IMG/VR virus record: IMGVR_UViG_3300032163_000042
Location: 1-40,113 of that record
From: a virus
DNA length: 40,113 nt
Reading direction: 5' to 3' (one strand)
The position numbers were made by a program, and so were the translations under genes. How positions within the stretch are numbered: the first letter of the stretch is position 1; each line of letters starts with the position of its first letter. The notes under the pieces were generated by a model, which searched no databases, had not been told where the DNA came from, and was given only the letters and a program-made list of their open reading frames with translations. Shown piece by piece: positions 1 through 34,835 of this stretch.

Positions 1-373
1 CATCATCGACAAGAGCGTGGCCACAGACGGTAGCGGCTCTTTGGACCATGGCATGGGCTCTGGCGGGGCCACAATTCACGGCACAGTCGAAGACCTTCGT
101 CGCGACCTTCGGATCCGAGATAGAACCATATCCGTACTTATCCCAGAAGAATTTCCTGTAAAGCCCACGACAAACATCCTTCGTCACTGACTTGAGACAG
201 CCGGGCACGAACGCGGGTATATCCAGGCCCAAATCCTTGGGAGTAAGACCCAGGCGTTTGATGGTCAGCATCGACCAGCCCATCATTGTCTCCCCGCCGG
301 GGTCGGCCAAATTGTGGACCCATCCGCCCTCGTGAGCCATTATTACGGGAATCGCAGATTCAAACGTTGGCAT
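1..373 (-). CDS. GH108-family endolysin (C-terminal end outside window)
   Basis: Phage muralytic enzyme of glycoside hydrolase family 108 (lysozyme-like), cutting peptidoglycan for host lysis. Seen: the family signature MAHEGGWVHNLADPGGET, in which the Glu of HEGG is the catalytic acid. Further on is the family's second conserved block, roughly KVATKVFDCAVNCGPARAHA, typical of the C-terminal GH108/peptidoglycan-binding region. The frame is open to position 1, so the stop lies outside. I chose the ATG at 373 because it aligns without gaps with the orphan N terminus at 880-963; an ATG two codons earlier (379) is also possible. There is no good ribosome site before either start, and the gene begins inside the end of the upstream HNH gene, so translation is probably coupled to it. 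Identity is confident; the start is less so. Confidence 0.9.
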   Translation of the reverse strand, partial: MPTFESAIPVIMAHEGGWVHNLADPGGETMMGWSMLTIKRLGLTPKDLGLDIPAFVPGCLKSVTKDVCRGLYRKFFWDKYGYGSISDPKVATKVFDCAVNCGPARAHAMVQRAATVCGHALVDD

Positions 374-890
374 CTTCATGATCCAGGAAATGTGTAATAC
401 GATGACAGTTAGCGCAGAGAAGGTTGCACTTTCCTAGGACCTCCTTGCGGGTCTTGTCGGGATTATCTACGGCAAAATCACCAAACGAGAAGTCCTTTTT
501 ACTGGGGTCCCGATGATGGAAATCGTAAACAGAAGAATGAAAAATTCCTTGACAAGAACTGCATTGCCCACCGAGAACTGCTATAAGCTCTGTCTTTAGC
601 TGGATCCTCTTCCAGATATTCCAATGGCGTCTGCAGAGATTGTTGCCATAATGGCGTTTGATGCATTTATTTTTAGAACAAAGGCGGTCCTTGATTCTAA
701 GCTCCACAGCTCCCGCCATTGATCTTCCCTGACGGAAGCGAAGATAATGGGCATTACAAAGGCCCCTGGACAGGGCCGATACCGTGCAGCTTTCGACAGA
801 ACACACTAAACCTTGATTTTTCATTCTCATGCCAGCAAGATTGTGGCCCATCCTAAATGAACGGATAGATGACTCAAAGTTATCGTTCAT
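360..890 (-). CDS. HNH homing endonuclease inserted in the endolysin gene
   Basis: A 176-aa HNH endonuclease with zinc fingers. Seen: two similar Cys/His fingers at about residues 30-48 (C30, C35, C45, H48) and 71-89 (C71, C76, C86, H89). The HNH core follows: C110/C113, the YDFHHRDP segment (H125, H126), and C159-A-N-C162-H163. Such proteins cut DNA site-specifically to spread their own gene. Its start overlaps the stop of the orphan endolysin 5' fragment (880-963), and its stop overlaps the first codons of the intact endolysin copy, so the gene sits exactly between two copies of the same N terminus. Base composition is more AT-rich than the flanking structural genes, which suggests recent acquisition. 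Activity is not shown. Confidence 0.9.
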   Translation of the reverse strand: MNDNFESSIRSFRMGHNLAGMRMKNQGLVCSVESCTVSALSRGLCNAHYLRFRQGRSMAGAVELRIKDRLCSKNKCIKRHYGNNLCRRHWNIWKRIQLKTELIAVLGGQCSSCQGIFHSSVYDFHHRDPSKKDFSFGDFAVDNPDKTRKEVLGKCNLLCANCHRITHFLDHEDANV

Positions 891-963
891 TTAGGATTCT
901 GACCCCGCTGTCCGTACCCTCATGGGCCAATATGATTTCTACCGCCGAGATAAAGTTAGACAT
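880..963 (-). pseudogene. Orphan 5' end of a GH108 endolysin gene (27 codons)
   Basis: A 27-aa reading frame beginning MSNFISAVEIILAHEG and then running into unrelated GTDSGVRILNER before a TAA. The first 16 residues match the N terminus of the downstream endolysin (MPTFESAIPVIMAHEG), with F, S, A, I and the whole AHEG catalytic motif conserved. It has a good ribosome site (AGGA, 8 nt before the ATG) and follows the tail fibre stop by 9 bases, where an intact endolysin gene would be expected to start. Homology is lost directly after HEG, where the HNH element begins. I read it as the original start of the endolysin, cut off by the insertion. A functional micropeptide is possible but unsupported. 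Confidence 0.8.
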
Positions 964-972
964 GGTCAATTC

Positions 973-3735
973 CTAGAACTCTGCTTCTGCTGTCCATTGA
1001 CCGGAAAAGTCACCGGCCGTGGGTGTATAGTTTCCGTTGGCCTCTACGGTAAAACCCTCGACGGTAATATCGGTGGGTGCCACGGCCCTATTTGTGGCAC
1101 TGCCTTCTGGGTTGGCCCATTCGCCGGACGTGCTGTCGGTACTAAAAAGAGCGACCGCTGGTGCAATCCGTTTAGTAACCCTAAAACGAGGATGATAGCC
1201 AAGGGCTAGGTCGTCGCCGGTGGTAACGGCCACAGCGGCTATAGATGTCTTATGTGCCCCGGCACCGGTGGCGTCACCGGGCTCGATATCGAGTGGATAT
1301 GATTTTTCGTAATATTTACGACAGAGGGCGTATTCTCCGGCTTCGCTTTCGCCACTAAGACGGAAGGGGGCGGCGTTAGGACCGACATTCACCATCACAT
1401 CGGCGATTTCGATCCAGTCGTTGGCCGCTGCTCCGGAACCAACCCATGCCCATCTGAGTTCCGCGCAGGTAATGGCCGTCCCCTGAGCAGAGGCTGGGGT
1501 GACCGTATACTTTACCCAGGAGGTGGTGGGGAAAAACGTAGATGAACTACTGGCATGTCCCGTCGTATAGTTAGCGTTTGCTCCGGCCCCATCGAGCCTT
1601 ACCTGTGTCGCGGCCCCGGTCCCGGTAGAGAAAGTCGCGTCCACAGAACTTGGGCTCCAACCGGCCCCAACACAAGCCCAGAAGGTGATGGTTATTTTCT
1701 GGCCGGCGATGTAATGGACATTCTCGCGCTCAATTTCTTGAGCGACAACAATCAGGTCTGTCCCTGCGGTTCTCTCCGCATGTAGTACGAAATTAGTCCC
1801 AGCCTTGGCAACGGTCGGAGCTATATTGTAGGTGCTGCCGGTGGTTCCTCCACCGCCGACCTTGCTGAGCCATCTGTCGGTGATACGGGTTTTGCTCGTA
1901 CTATACGCGAATTGCGTACTGACTGAATTTAGCCGCTGTTGAATGGCGAAGTTCGCGTTGTGGATGATGTTCTTGGTGTTGATTCTGTTATCGACGTAAG
2001 ATTTAGTCGCCGCGTCTTGATCGGCAGTAGGGTCTAGAACCTCGGCAATCTTTCTCGGCCCAGTTACAGATTGGAGGACACCGGCGGCTGTAATTTCCCA
2101 GACGTTGGTGTTATTGGTCTTGAACCGGAGCGGGTGGTTGGTAGTGGATCCAACAACGACCTGTGTATTGGCAGTATCTGCGTTGAGGACGCCCTGGACG
2201 GTACCGCTGGTGCCCGTGGCCAAGAAGTTATTCCCGGCGTTGTCGCGGGCAGCTATAATAGCGGCGCCGGTTCCTTTACCGGTACCTCTGACGCCGCTGC
2301 CGTTGGTGGCCGTAGAAAGGAACTCGCCGCCAACGGTCCCGTCAGTAGATCCGCCAGATCCGAGCACGCCGGCGCCGGGGCCATTACCGAAACCACCTAC
2401 GCCCGTACCTGTTGGTCCGCCGTTACCGACGACACCCGCACCGGAACCATCGCCGACGCCTACGATGGCATTCACGTTCCCGCCCGTGGCGGAGACTTCG
2501 ATTCGGCCGTTGGCCATGATCGAGACCACGACTGGCGTTGGTGCACTGCCCGGGGTCTGATTGAGCTTGACCACACCCAAACTAGTAGTGGTGGCGGGAG
2601 TGAAGGTGGTGCCAACCGCATACCGCCAGTTGCGGGTGAAGATAGACGACCCGGATCTCCAGGCTACAATCTGACGAGCGCCGGGAATGTTTCCTGGCCC
2701 GAGGGTGATGAGTGCGGACTTGACAGGAGTCAGATCCGTAATATCATCGGCTCTGTCCAGATCCACGTAGATACAGTCGCCATCGGCGAGATCGGTGAGA
2801 CCCGGTGAAGAGGTAGTTTGATCGGCGACATCGTTGAGGAAAACGGTGCTGTTGTCGAAGAGGAAGCGCAACCCCTTCCAATGCAGGTTAGTCCCATCCC
2901 ATTCGAAGTTCTCGCCATTAGTGAAGGGACTGCCGGTCCAGACCAAAGTGACATTTCTGTCGGCGGTGGCACTGTACCAGTATTCACCACCACCCAGCTC
3001 CCAGAGCCTGGTCATGATGGAATCCTGCCACTCTTTTTGTGACTCTATGGCTTTGTCGCCGCCGGAGAAAATGTCGCCGCTGGTATTCTCGTAGCGAGTT
3101 CCTGGCCAGGAATAGGAGCCCTGAATGTCGGGGAAGTCCCCTCCGTCTCCGAGCCTGAAGGCCATATTCCTGGCATCGACGACGCTGGTGATATTGTTTG
3201 AAGAATCAGTAATGACTTTAGCGAGTGGCACCAGATTCGGTTGCGAGCTAAAATCCGAGGTAGAGATGACTAGACGATAATCGAGAGTCCTCGCCAGAGG
3301 CACGGTATTAGCCGTCTCCAGGAGGGTGGTCGCGCTCAGGAACTGGAGGGTATCGCTGGTGGTATCGTCGGCACTTCGTCTGAGGTCGATGCCGACGAAG
3401 TTGGTGGCTGAACTCGTGAAGGATCCATCAACCCTGGCGTTGGTGCTGGTGAGGGTCTCGGCCAGGCGATCATCGGCGACGAAGAACATGCTGCCGCTTT
3501 CGGTGGCGTTGAAGTTGACCAGCACCGAGTTGGCGACAACGCACTGAATCTGGTTGGCGGGCCCTCCGGCGGTGATGTTTGTCAGAGCAAATCCCTTTAT
3601 AACAAGGGGCTGTTTTCCGGCGAGGATGGTACCAGTCGCAAGATCGAAATCGGCGGCGACCGAGGATTCCATAGCTCGTAGCAATGGCACGTCAATTCTT
3701 GCCTGGCCAAGAAAATTTGTCTGCCTAATCACCAT
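973..3735 (-). CDS. Tail fibre / distal baseplate attachment protein
   Basis: A 920-aa modular structural protein. The N-terminal half (to about residue 300) includes a SQKEWQDSIMTRLWELGGGE segment of the kind I associate with phage baseplate-attached proteins. A glycine-rich, low-complexity repeat stretch follows (GNGG, GFGNGPGAG, GSGG motifs, about residues 420-510). Near residue 580 is ADQDAATKSYVDNRI, the common phage tail-fibre KxYVD segment that often precedes a trimeric receptor-binding tip. The C-terminal 320 residues begin NIIHNANFAIQQR and look like a beta-sandwich carbohydrate-binding tip. The AGGAG about 11 nt upstream supports the ATG at 3735. It is the last structural gene before the lysis gene. 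Receptor binding is inferred. Confidence 0.75.
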   Translation of the reverse strand: MVIRQTNFLGQARIDVPLLRAMESSVAADFDLATGTILAGKQPLVIKGFALTNITAGGPANQIQCVVANSVLVNFNATESGSMFFVADDRLAETLTSTNARVDGSFTSSATNFVGIDLRRSADDTTSDTLQFLSATTLLETANTVPLARTLDYRLVISTSDFSSQPNLVPLAKVITDSSNNITSVVDARNMAFRLGDGGDFPDIQGSYSWPGTRYENTSGDIFSGGDKAIESQKEWQDSIMTRLWELGGGEYWYSATADRNVTLVWTGSPFTNGENFEWDGTNLHWKGLRFLFDNSTVFLNDVADQTTSSPGLTDLADGDCIYVDLDRADDITDLTPVKSALITLGPGNIPGARQIVAWRSGSSIFTRNWRYAVGTTFTPATTTSLGVVKLNQTPGSAPTPVVVSIMANGRIEVSATGGNVNAIVGVGDGSGAGVVGNGGPTGTGVGGFGNGPGAGVLGSGGSTDGTVGGEFLSTATNGSGVRGTGKGTGAAIIAARDNAGNNFLATGTSGTVQGVLNADTANTQVVVGSTTNHPLRFKTNNTNVWEITAAGVLQSVTGPRKIAEVLDPTADQDAATKSYVDNRINTKNIIHNANFAIQQRLNSVSTQFAYSTSKTRITDRWLSKVGGGGTTGSTYNIAPTVAKAGTNFVLHAERTAGTDLIVVAQEIERENVHYIAGQKITITFWACVGAGWSPSSVDATFSTGTGAATQVRLDGAGANANYTTGHASSSSTFFPTTSWVKYTVTPASAQGTAITCAELRWAWVGSGAAANDWIEIADVMVNVGPNAAPFRLSGESEAGEYALCRKYYEKSYPLDIEPGDATGAGAHKTSIAAVAVTTGDDLALGYHPRFRVTKRIAPAVALFSTDSTSGEWANPEGSATNRAVAPTDITVEGFTVEANGNYTPTAGDFSGQWTAEAEF

Positions 3736-19447: not shown

Positions 19448-20176
19448 CTACTCGATGAAGGTGAAAGTGAAACCGCCGGAGTGTTTTCTTTTTCCTAACA
19501 ACACCTTTTTGATATTTGATCTTTGTAGATTTAAGATTCGGGCGGCCTTATTGAGAGTATCGTACCGGACACCATGATTGTCTTTGAACGGTCTTCCTCC
19601 TCGCGCTCTAGAGCTTTGAATTCTAATTTCATCAAAGGCAAAGATTTCCTTGGCAATACCAGATCGCAGGGCCTTATATTTATCGGTCCGCTTTCCTTCT
19701 GTCATCGCACTGATTTGCTGATTCCAGGCTTGAGGATTCTTATTAATCCAATCAACAGTTTTCTCTGAAGCCTTAGTTCTGTTTTCTTGATTAGCCCACC
19801 GCTTCGAAGCTCTTTTGGAGTTTTGGGCCCGGGCATCCGGCATATTTCGTGTTATGCGCATTTTATTAATGGTTTCTTCAGAAAGTTTGCCGTGACTTCC
19901 GCCTTCTCGAATATTGTAACCGTTTTTGATACAGTCAAAATAATGAATCCAATAAATTTCTGCCGCATCGAGGTCTGTCTGATTATAAAATTCACCCAAA
20001 GCAGAAATAACAAAGGCTTCTGGGCCATATTTTTGAATCGCTCGGCTAAGTTTAACGCAAGGAGAGCTGATCTCTTTATGTCTCGTCCATCTCTGGGAAA
20101 TAGCTTCCCAGGTCTGGCCAACATATGCCTTACCGGTTACCTTGCAAAAAATATGGTAAATTTTACCGCTAATCAT
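19448..20176 (-). CDS. GIY-YIG homing endonuclease with NUMOD domains
   Basis: A 242-aa free-standing GIY-YIG nuclease. Seen: KIYHIFCKVTGKAYVGQT (the IYH and YVG elements at 6-8 and 18-20), the likely catalytic R29 in SQRWTRHK, E73 in DAAEIYWIHYF, and NGYNIREGG, all in canonical order. A basic linker with a NUMOD3-like segment (RAQNSKRASKRWANQENR) follows, and a NUMOD1-like DNA-binding end (TLNKAARILNLQRSNIKKVL). The gene is clearly more AT-rich than its neighbours. Its ATG lies within the last codons of the spike gene (8-nt overlap) and its stop is 3 bases before the next gene, a seamless intergenic insertion. The final codons of the spike gene (SLKNKND) share the AT-rich composition and may belong to the element. 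Confidence 0.93.
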   Translation of the reverse strand: MISGKIYHIFCKVTGKAYVGQTWEAISQRWTRHKEISSPCVKLSRAIQKYGPEAFVISALGEFYNQTDLDAAEIYWIHYFDCIKNGYNIREGGSHGKLSEETINKMRITRNMPDARAQNSKRASKRWANQENRTKASEKTVDWINKNPQAWNQQISAMTEGKRTDKYKALRSGIAKEIFAFDEIRIQSSRARGGRPFKDNHGVRYDTLNKAARILNLQRSNIKKVLLGKRKHSGGFTFTFIE

Positions 20177-21290
20177 TTTTATTTTTTAGCGACAGGTATG
20201 TCACAGTACCGGCTTCAAAGGCAGTTACAGCACCTATAAGGATCCCCACAGCCGAGGCTAGTCCGCCGATAACTGGGCCCATGGCTATAAACGAGACGCT
20301 GGCAGTAAGTAGCAACGGCGCACCGATGATGGGGCCGGCGACAGGTACAACATGAGCAGCGGCGGCACCGGCGATACCGGCGCCGGCAGTGGCGTGCAAA
20401 GCCGCGAGGGTGGCCAGGAGGGTGGCCATGGTGGTGAGGGCCGTGATCATCGTCGTATGGAGGATGGTTTCTGCTGCCCTATATGTCGTTCCCATCATAA
20501 AAGATTGAGTGGCCGCATCGCCTCCTACGAGGGTACCGAGGCTGGTGATTTTCACGTTACCTGTAGAAGAATCGATGATAGTCCCGGCGGGAGCATGCGT
20601 CTCCAGGTTGGAGGCCGCGATGACAGTGATTTTTCTCCCCGGATGATCGAATGTCAGCTTCTGGCTGGACCCAGCATCAACAAGCTCTAGGGTTCCGTCT
20701 TTCTTGAAGGAAATGGAGGACTCTCCGTTCCCCTGACTTACGCCCGAGGCGAGGGTGCCATCATTCTTAGTCGCGCCCCTGAACATTACCGAGAGTTCAC
20801 CGTCTTTATTGATGGTTGCTCGGGTGCCATTAAATTCCCACAGTAGGTGGTGGCCTTCATCCTGTTGATCCTTGGTGTTATCAGATTCTGGGTCTCTGAT
20901 TCCGCTGAGGATATAGGTCCTCGTACTTTCGCCATTGGCGCATAGAAGCAAGACTTTGGCGCCGATTCCGAGGCCAGTATCTTTTGCGTTTTGGCTCGGG
21001 TCGGCACGGAGGGTAAACTTGAATTTGTCGCCACCGCTACCGAAGGTATTAGCCAGCAGACAATTTGTGTACAGGGTGGAAACAGCGGGGCCGCCTCCGT
21101 CTCGATGTGACACCTCGACAGTGTATTCTACGTAGCTCTTGGTTACCGACTGGTCTGAATCTGGCCAGACTATGGCCTTGACCTCGCCGATTCTCAACGC
21201 CGTATTCGTGAAGTTGCCCGTGTCTTCGGCCACGCCCCGTTGGCGAATACCAAGATATGATGGGATTACTGTTCCATCTTCTAGCATCAT
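20169..21290 (-). CDS. Baseplate spike / OB-fold hub protein (gp5- or gpV-like)
   Basis: A 373-aa protein. Residues about 30-150 form a beta-rich, OB-fold-like domain (IGEVKAIVWPDSDQSVTKSY, later GLGIGAKVLLLCANGESTR). Then come beta-repeat segments typical of membrane-piercing spikes (GELSVMFRG, SSISFKKDGTLELVDAG, LETHAPAGTIIDSSTGNVKI). After a DAATQSFMMGTTYRAAE segment common in gpV-type spikes, the C terminus (about 280-360) is unusually hydrophobic and alanine/glycine-rich (ALTTMATLLATLAALHATAG, then PVAGPIIGAPLLLTAS). It follows the hub gene by 2 bases. A lysozyme domain as in T4 gp5 is not seen. The role as central spike is inferred from fold and position. Confidence 0.75.
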   Translation of the reverse strand: MMLEDGTVIPSYLGIRQRGVAEDTGNFTNTALRIGEVKAIVWPDSDQSVTKSYVEYTVEVSHRDGGGPAVSTLYTNCLLANTFGSGGDKFKFTLRADPSQNAKDTGLGIGAKVLLLCANGESTRTYILSGIRDPESDNTKDQQDEGHHLLWEFNGTRATINKDGELSVMFRGATKNDGTLASGVSQGNGESSISFKKDGTLELVDAGSSQKLTFDHPGRKITVIAASNLETHAPAGTIIDSSTGNVKITSLGTLVGGDAATQSFMMGTTYRAAETILHTTMITALTTMATLLATLAALHATAGAGIAGAAAAHVVPVAGPIIGAPLLLTASVSFIAMGPVIGGLASAVGILIGAVTAFEAGTVTYLSLKNKND

Positions 21291-23182: not shown

Positions 23183-25591
23183 TTAGAAACTCTTGCCGCC
23201 ACCGGGGATGATGTTGCTACCATTAGGGGCGGCTTTGACTGTAGTGCCGCTGACACCAAATTTATTTTCCAGGGCCCAGGTCATCTTGCCAATGGCGGCT
23301 ATAAATTTATCTGCGGCGGCGTCGAGATTAGTCCCGAAGGCCTCCATTTTCGTAAAATCGCTGGTGCTGCTTTTAATAGCCTTCAAGAAATCGTCGTGTA
23401 TGCGGAGAAGCTCGGCGTTAATCGTCTTCTCCTTTTCCATCCTGGCTTCTGTGTCAGCCGCCTCGCCGCCAGTTAACTTCTTGCCCACTTTGCCGAGTTT
23501 GAGGGCTGTTTTCTCATCGAGGCCGGCTTCAGCCCCGAGCAGGCCGATACCCGCCTCTTCACCTTCGCCTGTAGCCAGACCGAAGGCCACGCCCAAGGAT
23601 TTAACCGCCTCTTCCTTTTCTTTACCCTTGAGGCCAGAAAGATAACCGGGAAGGTCTTGGCCAGAGGCTTTGTACTTGGCCATGGCTTTGCCCATGGCAG
23701 AGTTCTTGTCCATGCCGGGCATGCGTTCTTCTAGAACAGAGGAGATGCTCGCACCCATCTGGGACCTGACATCGCCGCCGCTGATACCCAGCTGCTTCAT
23801 GGTCTCGGTTGTACCACCGCCGCGGATGGCATCCATCATCTGCCGCGTGTTCATACCGTTGGCGAGATAATCTTGGGTATAGACATCTGCTCCGGGCTTG
23901 ATTCTCATCGCAGAGGTCAGGTTCCGAGCCTGTTGGTAGGCGTCGAGGCCACCCCCAACAACCTGATTCCCGAGTCCCATACCGGCCTGGAGTTGATTGA
24001 CTTTGTTGAAGTCTCCGACGCCGCCAGTGAATCCCATACCAGCTTGGGCCGCGCCGAGCATACCCAGTCCCGAGGTAGTACCACGGACATCAAAGCCTTG
24101 GCCGATGATAGCCCCGCCGAGTTGAACACCCGCGGCTTGGTCAATGCCACCGCCGAGGGCCCCGAAGGCAAATTGCCGCCCACCCCCTAGTCCGCCAGCA
24201 CGAGCAGCGGCACCGGCCATTTCGCCGAACCCGCCGAGGCCAGTGGATTGAGCGGCCATAGCGCTGTAGGCCATTTTGTTCGCAAATTGCCGCCCAGCCG
24301 ATTGTCTCAGCCCGGCATGGGCGCCCGCGTACTCATCTACACTATACGCTTGGGCACCTAATGATGTCTCCAGCTGAGAATAGGCATCTGTCCTATTTCC
24401 GAGTTTGTCCTGGACACCGAAGCCGCTAATACCCAACATCCGCTGGGCACCGATGCGGCTACCGCGATTAGCCTGGAATTTATCCATGGCCATATTCTGC
24501 ATGATATTGGCTTTTTGTTCTGAATCGATTACATCAAAAGCTTTTTTCACACGATCGGTTTCTCGGTTCCCGGTAGTGATAGCGCCAAGGGCTCCACCGC
24601 CCGTATCTTCTCCAACAACCCCGGCTTTTCTCAGCATGCCACCAACAAGAGGTACGCTGCCAGCGAACTGTTCAAGACCCCGGCGCCCCTGTTCTAGTCC
24701 AGAACCGATGCCCATAGTCTGAGACATCACGTCTTCTTTGGCCATACCGCTTAGGGTCTGCATTGCGTAGCTGGCTTTATAGTCGCCACCGCGCAGGGCC
24801 TGCATACGGCCTGTGACTAGATCCGCACGCTTCCCGCTCTCGGTAGCAAATTGGCGTGTTCCGGCCCGGTTCTCATTCAGGCCAAAATTGGCCACGGCCA
24901 TTATCGCCGCCAGCGAGGAACCGATACCCATGGCCCCGCCACCGCCGCCACCGGGCAAGAAGCTGGGGATCCTGCTCATTATACCGCCTCCACCACCAGC
25001 ACCGGCGGGAGACTGAGCGGCGGCAATTGATGCCTGCTGGGCCTGGAGCTGGCCCAATTGAGTCGACGCCGCCTGTCGCTGGCCCTCGGTGGTAAGTACA
25101 TTCCTCCCCACCACGTCCATGGACATCTGCGATCGATTTGGATCCATGCCCTGGCTCATGGCCTTGGCTTTATAACTGGCCAAATCGTCGTATCTCTTCG
25201 CCAATTTAGCAAGGTCGGCATCTAGGCTGGAGATGCTCCGCTTCTGTTCGTCAATGCCACGCCTGACGCTGTCGCTCATGATTCGGAGCGAGTCCTTGCT
25301 GACATTGGCCATATTGGACATGGCCTTCGATGAATCAATAAAGGCCTGGGCTAATCCTCCGCCTTGAGCCCCTTGCTGTGCCTGAGTTTTGATGGCGGTT
25401 GTCGGGCTTTGACCCGTGACAGAACCGCCACCGCCCATGGCTACCCGGCCGCCACCGAGACTTAAGCCCGAGGCCGTGCGCACAAGCGCCTCCATATCCT
25501 TATTAATTTCTCTTATGGATGTGCGAAGTTTATTAAGACTCTGCTCATCGACTTTGAAGACGAATTTGATCTGTTTGTCGTCACCGGCCAT
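23183..25591 (-). CDS. Tape measure protein candidate
   Basis: An 802-aa protein with the expected position and composition. The N terminus (KQIKFVFKVDEQSLNKLRTS, then helices to about residue 200) is helical and coiled-coil-like. The middle is very rich in Gly and Ala (GGGGGIMSR, AGAAARAGGLGGG, GGGVAMGG-type runs) with M/A/G repeats. The C terminus returns to charged helices. It lies downstream of two chaperone-like genes, apart from an inserted HNH gene, and upstream of the hub. Known tape measures set tail length at about 1.5 angstrom per residue, so 802 residues would give a tail of roughly 120 nm. No peptidase or lysozyme domain is seen. Confidence 0.7.
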   Translation of the reverse strand: MAGDDKQIKFVFKVDEQSLNKLRTSIREINKDMEALVRTASGLSLGGGRVAMGGGGSVTGQSPTTAIKTQAQQGAQGGGLAQAFIDSSKAMSNMANVSKDSLRIMSDSVRRGIDEQKRSISSLDADLAKLAKRYDDLASYKAKAMSQGMDPNRSQMSMDVVGRNVLTTEGQRQAASTQLGQLQAQQASIAAAQSPAGAGGGGGIMSRIPSFLPGGGGGGAMGIGSSLAAIMAVANFGLNENRAGTRQFATESGKRADLVTGRMQALRGGDYKASYAMQTLSGMAKEDVMSQTMGIGSGLEQGRRGLEQFAGSVPLVGGMLRKAGVVGEDTGGGALGAITTGNRETDRVKKAFDVIDSEQKANIMQNMAMDKFQANRGSRIGAQRMLGISGFGVQDKLGNRTDAYSQLETSLGAQAYSVDEYAGAHAGLRQSAGRQFANKMAYSAMAAQSTGLGGFGEMAGAAARAGGLGGGRQFAFGALGGGIDQAAGVQLGGAIIGQGFDVRGTTSGLGMLGAAQAGMGFTGGVGDFNKVNQLQAGMGLGNQVVGGGLDAYQQARNLTSAMRIKPGADVYTQDYLANGMNTRQMMDAIRGGGTTETMKQLGISGGDVRSQMGASISSVLEERMPGMDKNSAMGKAMAKYKASGQDLPGYLSGLKGKEKEEAVKSLGVAFGLATGEGEEAGIGLLGAEAGLDEKTALKLGKVGKKLTGGEAADTEARMEKEKTINAELLRIHDDFLKAIKSSTSDFTKMEAFGTNLDAAADKFIAAIGKMTWALENKFGVSGTTVKAAPNGSNIIPGGGKSF

Positions 25592-26049
25592 TACGCCACC
25601 CTATGGAGACGACGATAGGTGGTTCTAATCCTATGACAACATGCACAAACCAATTCGCACTTGGCGATTTCCGCCTCTATTCTTTCCCAAGATAAACACT
25701 GACCGATCATTGTCGAAATATTTCCGCTCTTGTTACTTCTGATATGATCAAAATCCATAGCAATAGACGGCCACTTAGAGCCACAGTCTGTGCATGGCCC
25801 GGCCTTTAAAAGGTCAACTTTCCGATGCCATTCTTGGCGCCGAATTTTCAGGTAATCCCTCGCCCAAAGATTCTTCCAGTTTCTTATCTTATCTTTGTTC
25901 CTCAGGTAGTGGATTTTCATTTGGATTCGGATTTTTTCTTTGTTTATTTGATAATGCTCACGACGATAAACAGCTTGACACGATCGACAGTATCCACCCT
26001 TGAAAGGAACATGGTCTGAACCACCACATTTTGAGCAACTTTTATCCAT
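25591..26049 (-). CDS. HNH homing endonuclease between chaperone and tape measure genes
   Basis: A 152-aa protein. An N-terminal zinc ribbon (C5, C8, C21, C24) is followed by a basic helical linker rich in K, R and W (30-80). The HNH core comprises C86/C89, the DFDH motif at 99-102, and the C135-x-x-C138-H139 end. Its TAA overlaps the ATG of the tape measure gene, and its start is 11 bases after the preceding gene. It thus sits in a junction that is normally tight in tail operons. AT content is higher than in its neighbours. Unlike the HNH at 360-890, I see no duplicated host sequence on either side. Confidence 0.9.
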   Translation of the reverse strand: MDKSCSKCGGSDHVPFKGGYCRSCQAVYRREHYQINKEKIRIQMKIHYLRNKDKIRNWKNLWARDYLKIRRQEWHRKVDLLKAGPCTDCGSKWPSIAMDFDHIRSNKSGNISTMIGQCLSWERIEAEIAKCELVCACCHRIRTTYRRLHRVA

Positions 26050-34028: not shown

Positions 34029-34464
34029 ATTCATCAGAGTCCCTTGCAGCCAATCCGAGCTGGCGCAGCTGAGGATGATGATCAGGGTTCTGCATGCGCA
34101 GCGCCTTGTCGAGATAGTCTCTCAGCTGCGTGGCGTGGAGAAAGCCGGGGATTTACTCATCGTCTCGGAAATACTCAAATACGCGGACGTCTACCGAGCC
34201 TATGACCATTTGTTGCTAACGGCTATAGAGTGTACCATCACCCTAGAGTCAGAGACGACCGAACTATTAACTACGCCCCAGACGCTAGAGTTCTTCCGGT
34301 GCATGCTCGCCAGCACTTTTGATTGTGGGGGTATTAACGCCCCGACGATGACGCAGATTATCGCCAACTGCCAAGAGGCGCAACCGGCCCTGAGACGTAA
34401 ATTCGATGAGGCCGCCAGCACGTCGGTAGCCGCCACCATGCCCTCTGCACAGGGTAGGAACTAA
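34015..34464 (+). CDS. Helical protein of unknown function
   Basis: A 149-aa protein, predicted mostly alpha-helical (QSELAQLRMMIRVLHAQRLV, later RAYDHLLLTAIECTITLESE). The N-terminal part contains leucine-rich heptads. It has an AGGAAAG ribosome site and overlaps the end of the membrane protein gene by 14 bases. No family recognised. It lies upstream of the endonuclease VII-type gene. Confidence 0.7.
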   Translation: MTDNEFIRVPCSQSELAQLRMMIRVLHAQRLVEIVSQLRGVEKAGDLLIVSEILKYADVYRAYDHLLLTAIECTITLESETTELLTTPQTLEFFRCMLASTFDCGGINAPTMTQIIANCQEAQPALRRKFDEAASTSVAATMPSAQGRN

Positions 34465-34835
34465 TGGACAGAAGAGAAATCGTAAAGGCCTCCAGGTGGC
34501 GATGTCGTCATCGGCCTTGCACAGTTATTGGGTGCTTAAAACCTCGTGCCAGCGCAAGAACTACATGTAAGCTACATCGTCAGCTCGGCATGCACGGTCT
34601 TAAATCTGAAGAATACGAACGTCTATTCTCAATTCAATCAAGCCGATGTGCAATATGTCAATCCGAAAAGCCAGGTGGGCGTGGGTGGCAAATTGACCAC
34701 AGTCATTCGACAGGCGTTGTTCGGGGTATTCTCTGTTTCCGTTGTAATCTAGTACTAGGCATGATCGAAGATTTTCCGCCTACAGCAAGACGCATCGTAG
34801 AATATCTGGAGCTTAAAGATGGTTGGATTGGTTGA
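34464..34835 (+). CDS. HNH endonuclease, recombination endonuclease VII type
   Basis: A 123-aa protein of the endonuclease VII/HNH class. Seen: a basic, Cys/His-rich N terminus (C14, C19, C24, C35, H38), the family's HGLKSEEYERLFSIQ segment at 44-58, the zinc site C62-x-x-C65 with C91-x-x-C94, the catalytic DHSHSTGVVRG segment at 78-88, and N95 after CFRC. This is the type found both as phage resolvases and as homing endonucleases. T4 endonuclease VII (157 aa) is longer; this one lacks most of the C-terminal dimerisation part. It is AT-richer than neighbours, its ATG overlaps the preceding stop (TAATG) and its end overlaps the next gene by 17 bases. I favour a mobile gene, but a resolvase is possible. 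Confidence 0.87.
   Translation: MDRREIVKASRWRCRHRPCTVIGCLKPRASARTTCKLHRQLGMHGLKSEEYERLFSIQSSRCAICQSEKPGGRGWQIDHSHSTGVVRGILCFRCNLVLGMIEDFPPTARRIVEYLELKDGWIG

Follow-up and report, generated by a model that had tools for sequence, protein, structure and literature searches.

We report that the HNH gene beside the lysis gene of this virus is probably a free-standing homing endonuclease gene, one of a family dedicated to GH108 endolysins, which has inserted into the 5' coding region of the endolysin gene and swapped its start. The window, that is, the whole stretch of DNA analysed, comprises the complete virus record of 40113 bp. The preliminary description of this DNA had claimed that an HNH gene enters a GH108 gene together with a replacement 5' end; that claim held among relatives, through three empty-site comparisons (L003 with L029, L080 with L074, and L108 with L046) and a recurrent association in 14 genomes, whereas for the window itself the replacement is something we infer. 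Entry of an HNH gene into a phage lysis gene by start replacement is real and apparently undescribed so far.

Layout of the window locus

The record is probably a fragment of a larger myovirus, and its baseplate protein is 37% identical to the counterpart in Myxococcus phage Mx1. On the minus strand the order is tail-fibre gene, orphan frame, HNH gene and GH108 endolysin, with these features:

973..3735, minus strand: tail-fibre gene, 920 aa, the upstream neighbour (open reading frame)
880..963, minus strand: orphan GH108-type start MSNFISAVEIILAHEGTDSGV..., a 27-aa frame with its own AGGA (open reading frame; Milchi match)
360..890, minus strand: HNH endonuclease gene, 176 aa (PHROG HNH families)
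858..890, minus strand: HNH codons 1-11, MNDNFESSIRS, resembling a captured GH108 start (background N-terminus comparison)
850..897, minus strand: perfect 14-bp inverted repeat, arms 850-863 and 884-897, spanning the HNH start codon
360..373, minus strand: overlap of 14 nt between the HNH 3' end and the endolysin start (MPTF ATG)
326..373, minus strand: endolysin codons 1-16 (MPTFESAIPVIMAHEG), presumed donated 5' end (analogy with the L003, L080 and L108 tracts)
2..373, minus strand: GH108 endolysin, 3' end beyond the contig, with ATG 379 as alternative start (PF05838, PHROG 315)

The endolysin starts at ATG 379 (MKMPTF) or 373 (MPTF), and 126 aa are seen before the contig ends inside the gene. 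It belongs to GH108, matching Pfam PF05838 with E = 2e-17 and 63.8 bits (cut-off 21.2) and carrying the HEG motif, and was assigned to PHROG 315, endolysin. The HNH protein has an N-terminal Cys/His motif (CNAHYLR) and a C-terminal DFHH...LLCANCHR..H, of which DFHH and CANCHR..H are conserved in its family, and it matched PHROG HNH endonuclease families with E 3e-17. Pfam HNH was found in 8 of 11 family members, the window protein itself being without a Pfam HNH match; we assign to it an HNH nuclease domain with catalytic His residues. A profile search of solved structures with the HNH protein gave no match, and a structure search with its model, which was of modest confidence, gave weak HNH and EndoVII matches only.

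The orphan frame runs from an ATG at 963 to an in-frame stop ending at 880 and encodes MSNFISAVEIILAHEGTDSGVRILNER; its AGGA, 8 nt upstream of the ATG, overlaps the tail-fibre stop, and its own stop overlaps the HNH start. A short frame with its own ribosome site before the HNH gene is thus present as first described, and so is the likeness of the two starts, which are identical at 8 of 15 residues after Met, a value equalled in 0 of 200,000 shuffles. The shared residues had also been said to differ in codon at most silent sites; only half of them (4 of 8) do. The start of the GH108 endolysin of the isolated Pseudomonas phage Milchi, MSNFNKAVDIVLAHEG, is identical to the orphan at 12 of 16 residues and, therefore, the orphan is a real GH108-type start, likely the remnant of a former endolysin start. 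A tblastn search with the orphan matched Milchi and Astolliot and nothing else, and a search of viral contigs with a degenerate DNA pattern for EII.AHEG, aimed at an HNH-free window relative of MSNF type, yielded unrelated proteins only. One candidate relative, L189, was discarded when its match proved unrelated.

The arms of the inverted repeat enclose a loop of 20 nt, and the stem is present in the predicted fold; the stability of the whole region is not unusual (z -1.0). It is possible that the repeat forms an RNA hairpin that hides the HNH start, which could dampen HNH translation.

An HNH family linked to GH108 endolysins

The family was gathered by scans with the HNH protein, with alignments built from it, and by one GH108 endolysin scan; the relatives are metagenome-assembled viral contigs. 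Full-length HNH relatives occurred in 13 further distinct viral genomes (L003, L042, L080, L103, L104, L105, L107, L108, L110, L114, L133, L272 and L274). The HNH gene lay directly upstream of a GH108 endolysin of the same orientation, whose ATG overlapped the HNH stop by 4-20 nt, in 14 of 14 genomes, a proportion that describes this HNH family and not HNH genes at large, the search having been seeded with GH108-linked members. More distant HNH genes gave no GH108 linkage, and 0 of 80 HNH loci from the genome collection were GH108-linked. Phages XbC2 and Kaldavass have more distant HNH genes of near-full length, which were located in tRNA clusters and were set aside. In L103 and L133 an almost identical tract (CTGTAGGTTGTAGGCCACTG...GCCGACATG) lies ~70 nt before the HNH gene.

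Such an arrangement might also arise if an HNH gene had simply landed in intergenic space and the likeness of starts reflected GH108 ancestry or the constraint of overlapping frames; GH108 starts are generally similar, and 42 of 217 unlinked HNH genes overlap the downstream frame. We consider a chance neighbourhood of this kind unlikely, as it does not account for the linkage of the whole family to one enzyme family, for replaced tracts that reach well past the overlap, or for the captured starts and incongruent flanks described below.

Empty-site comparisons

Among the relatives the HNH gene showed a present/absent polymorphism at a conserved site, being present in L003, L080 and L108 and absent from L029, L074 and L046. 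For the L003 endolysin many HNH-free relatives exist. The 60 nt before the start codon are identical in L003 and L029, and the HNH gene then follows in L003; within the endolysin, codons 1-16 differ at 16 of 48 nt, mostly silently, and codons 17-40 at none (divergence of the start versus codons 33 onwards, Fisher 3e-7). L080 and L074 have ATGAAAGACAACTT in common, with the HNH gene next in L080, and their endolysins differ at 32 of 72 nt in codons 1-24 and at 0-1 nt in the next 15 codons. Between L108 and L046 the endolysins differ at 17 of 48 nt, and divergence is low again after codon 32. The flanks were thus co-converted in these relatives, with replaced 5' tracts of 16 to ~32 codons. The junction had been placed directly after HEG; the replaced tracts end instead at codon 16, ~25 and ~32, and the orphan may stay homologous beyond HEG (TDS.V versus TDTNFWV in L002). 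For 159 HNH-free control pairs with bodies more than 90% identical, start identity was at least 85% in ~90% (10th percentile 85%). One HNH-free pair had a divergent 5' end (62%), so starts can change without an HNH gene.

The DNA upstream of the HNH gene is unrelated in L080 and L108 (47%, near random alignment), yet their HNH genes are 79% and their endolysin starts 85% identical. When L042 is included, starts are 81-85% and HNH genes 79-90% identical, with the L108 upstream DNA unrelated to that of the other two. Compared with its own HNH-free relative, the upstream DNA is 92% identical for L080 and L074 and 83% for L108 and L037. Because HNH gene and endolysin start are alike in all three despite the unrelated L108 flank, we conclude that the two travel together.

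Captured starts and a new ribosome site

The resident endolysin start, ATGAAAGA[A/C/G]AACTT, opens the HNH frame in L042, L080 and L108. Its third codon varies and tracks the local HNH-free lineage (L077, L074 and L037), which indicates that the nuclease took over the resident start codon. In L103 both HNH protein and endolysin begin MSEFQRSLAK, with 5 silent and 0 amino-acid differences in 30 nt. The window HNH start, MNDNFESSI, resembles the GH108 start MKDNFESCL, and a score that high was reached by 0.07% of 1337 background N-termini in a comparison set assembled after the data had been seen; it has the appearance of a third GH108 start, taken over from an earlier host. The HNH starts of L110, L133 and L105 showed no clear likeness to GH108 starts.

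The endolysin ATG is contained in the HNH 3' end, where in most members the sequence CAYAGGATY (HNH residues HRI) puts AGGA a few bases before the ATG; the new endolysin ribosome site usually falls within the codons for HNH "CHRI". For Arg, 12 of 14 family members use AGG, versus 17 of 167 unlinked HNH genes (p 2e-9, a value that overstates independence because family members are related). The window HNH gene is an exception, with CGT as its Arg codon and without the AREN/AREL-type overlap of the main group.

Two similar starts flanking an HNH gene, protein-identical in L103, could in principle stem from an endolysin 5' end duplicated in tandem, the HNH gene having inserted itself between the copies. 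The silent differences in L103 and the strong divergence in the window speak against this origin, as does the finding that in some relatives the new start differs from those of all HNH-free relatives though the body is identical; two copies were present in none of the HNH-free relatives. We regard such a duplication as highly unlikely, in agreement with the preliminary description, which had excluded a fresh tandem duplication. An equally poor case can be made for a group I intron that carries the HNH gene and separates orphan and body as spliced exons. Phage introns often host HNH genes, and an exon-like N terminus does lie upstream; however, window positions 1-1600 gave no Rfam match up to E = 5 and hold no recognisable ribozyme core, the downstream gene has its own complete start, and in L003, L042, L080 and L108 the inserted DNA consists wholly of coding sequence between the resident start codon and the new, overlapping start, which leaves no room for a ribozyme.

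History of the window endolysin

No close HNH-free relative of the window locus was found. The HNH-free relatives of the window endolysin (L002, L183, L185, L186, L187 and L188) all have starts of the form ...AIPVIM[AS]HEG, like the downstream copy; because all body relatives have it, the MPTF start is of the usual type on this endolysin body and the orphan is the outlier. The expectation that uninterrupted relatives would join an MSNF start to this body, put forward as support in the preliminary description, therefore failed. Of the two observations that it had named as contrary, an HNH-free relative with both copies and an upstream frame that runs on into a second endolysin, neither was encountered. 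Immediately after HEG, the relatives with the closest bodies (58-60%; L183, L188 and L002) have a loop, TDTNF or TPTNF, and the orphan has TDS; the present window gene is without this loop (HEGGWV), as in L185 and L186. This mixed signal from start and loop fits a donated 5' end in the window, which we otherwise infer by analogy with the tracts of L003, L080 and L108.

Alternatively, the HNH gene may have come into the window with a complete foreign endolysin that replaced an older MSNF-type gene, of which only the start was left. The whole-gene import is a genuine though lesser possibility, because the contig ends inside the endolysin. It would explain why the body relatives share the start type of the downstream copy, why the nearest match of the orphan is Milchi, which represents a different GH108 lineage, and why several endolysin types are found behind homologous tail fibres. 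On the other hand, the well-resolved relatives show short replaced tracts only, and it is the orphan that has the HEGTD of the closest-body lineage (L183, L188 and L002), the present start having HEGGWV. For the window we tentatively prefer donation of a 5' end.

Behind the tail-fibre homologues of L013-L018 lie varied endolysins, and behind that of L186 a GH108 gene without an HNH gene. The endolysin-like genes behind them in L013, L015, L017, L018 and L186 comprise amidase, peptidase-like, CHAP-like and GH108 types, those other than GH108 being judged by eye from sequence. From these comparisons the lysis position behind tail-fibre homologues appears to be exchange-prone.

Proposed mechanism of start replacement

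We propose that the HNH enzyme cuts HNH-free endolysin alleles within the first ~25 codons and that an HNH-bearing phage genome serves as template for repair of the break, whereby the recipient would gain the HNH gene and the first ~16-32 endolysin codons of the donor. Sequence comparison shows the gain of an HNH gene with a donor 5' tract in L003, L080 and L108. In this scheme the resident start would stay behind upstream, to become the start of the HNH frame in L042, L080, L108 and L103 or, in the window, to survive as a separate frame of 27 codons. The endolysin would then be read from the donated start overlapping the HNH stop, with a Shine-Dalgarno sequence usually in the HNH CHRI codons, and translation of HNH gene and endolysin may be coupled. 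Silent recoding of the donated start would also shield an HNH-bearing allele from cleavage by its own enzyme. The HEG codons fall in the possible target interval without being singled out, and targeting of HEG is plausible. The window member would combine a functional start with a remnant start and with an HNH start seemingly taken from an earlier host.

We lean slightly towards a broader reading, in which these genes would form a distinct class of mobile genes: GH108-dedicated HNH genes that take the resident start, give in return a recoded, cut-resistant start with its ribosome site inside the codons of the nuclease catalytic motif, and shuffle lysis-gene 5' ends between unrelated phages by repeated homing, with two rounds stacked in the window. 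An intron-less selfish gene could by such a new gene start enter an essential phage gene near the catalytic site without killing it. With the pairs of HNH-bearing and HNH-free alleles identified here, cleavage of the target, self-immunity and translational coupling can be put to a direct test. For annotation, it should be kept in mind that endolysins beside HNH genes may have chimeric N termini and that a short orphan frame in front may represent a remnant.

Relation to known mobile endonuclease genes

Mitochondrial mobile endonuclease ORFs (mORFs) replace the 3' ends of genes, as in atp6 of Allomyces macrogynus and atp6, atp9, cox2 and nad3 of Glomus (PMC3630166). As at the phage locus, a free-standing endonuclease gene within a host gene supplies it with a foreign end, the native end that was displaced persists as a remnant, and most differences between the donated and native ends are silent (PMC3630166). 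The mORFs differ in that they encode LAGLIDADG or GIY-YIG enzymes, replace the 3' (C-terminal) end and are mitochondrial, whereas here an HNH gene replaces the 5' end of a phage lysis gene; moreover, only in the phage family is the native start reused by the endonuclease and a new ribosome site located inside the endonuclease gene. The relatives do have a donated end and a native remnant, for the 5' end, but no LAGLIDADG or GIY-YIG enzyme with 3' replacement, and so the phage element appears to work like a gene-end-replacing mORF while being a non-member. The family would be the 5' mirror image of mitochondrial gene-end replacement, and a search of the openly licensed literature found no phage lysis-gene case of gene-end replacement.

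The seg and mob genes of T4, including the gene-splitting mobA and mobE insertions, are likewise intron-less HNH or GIY-YIG genes, and the free-standing T4 endonucleases overlap their neighbours, spread by double-strand break repair and co-convert flanks, much as we propose for the phage family (PMC2988022). The T4 genes differ in being intergenic or splitting a gene into two expressed pieces, and the part of that account drawn on here describes no donated replacement start (PMC2988022). The I-HmuI-like HNH genes of Skunavirus are also free-standing, form families specific for insertion sites and show marker exclusion; they are set apart by description, being of the I-HmuI type with no mention of endolysin association (PMC12724721).

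Other endonuclease genes in the window

A second HNH gene (25591-26049, minus strand; phrog_2255, E 1e-23) has a stop that overlaps by 1 nt the start of an 802-aa gene (23183-25591), and no obvious second start was seen upstream of the latter. A GIY-YIG endonuclease gene with an I-HmuI-like NUMOD domain (19448-20176, minus strand) overlaps the end of the gene at 20169-21290. An Endonuclease VII-like gene (34464-34835, plus strand; PF02945, E 5e-21) is possibly a further homing endonuclease gene, of the F-CphI kind.
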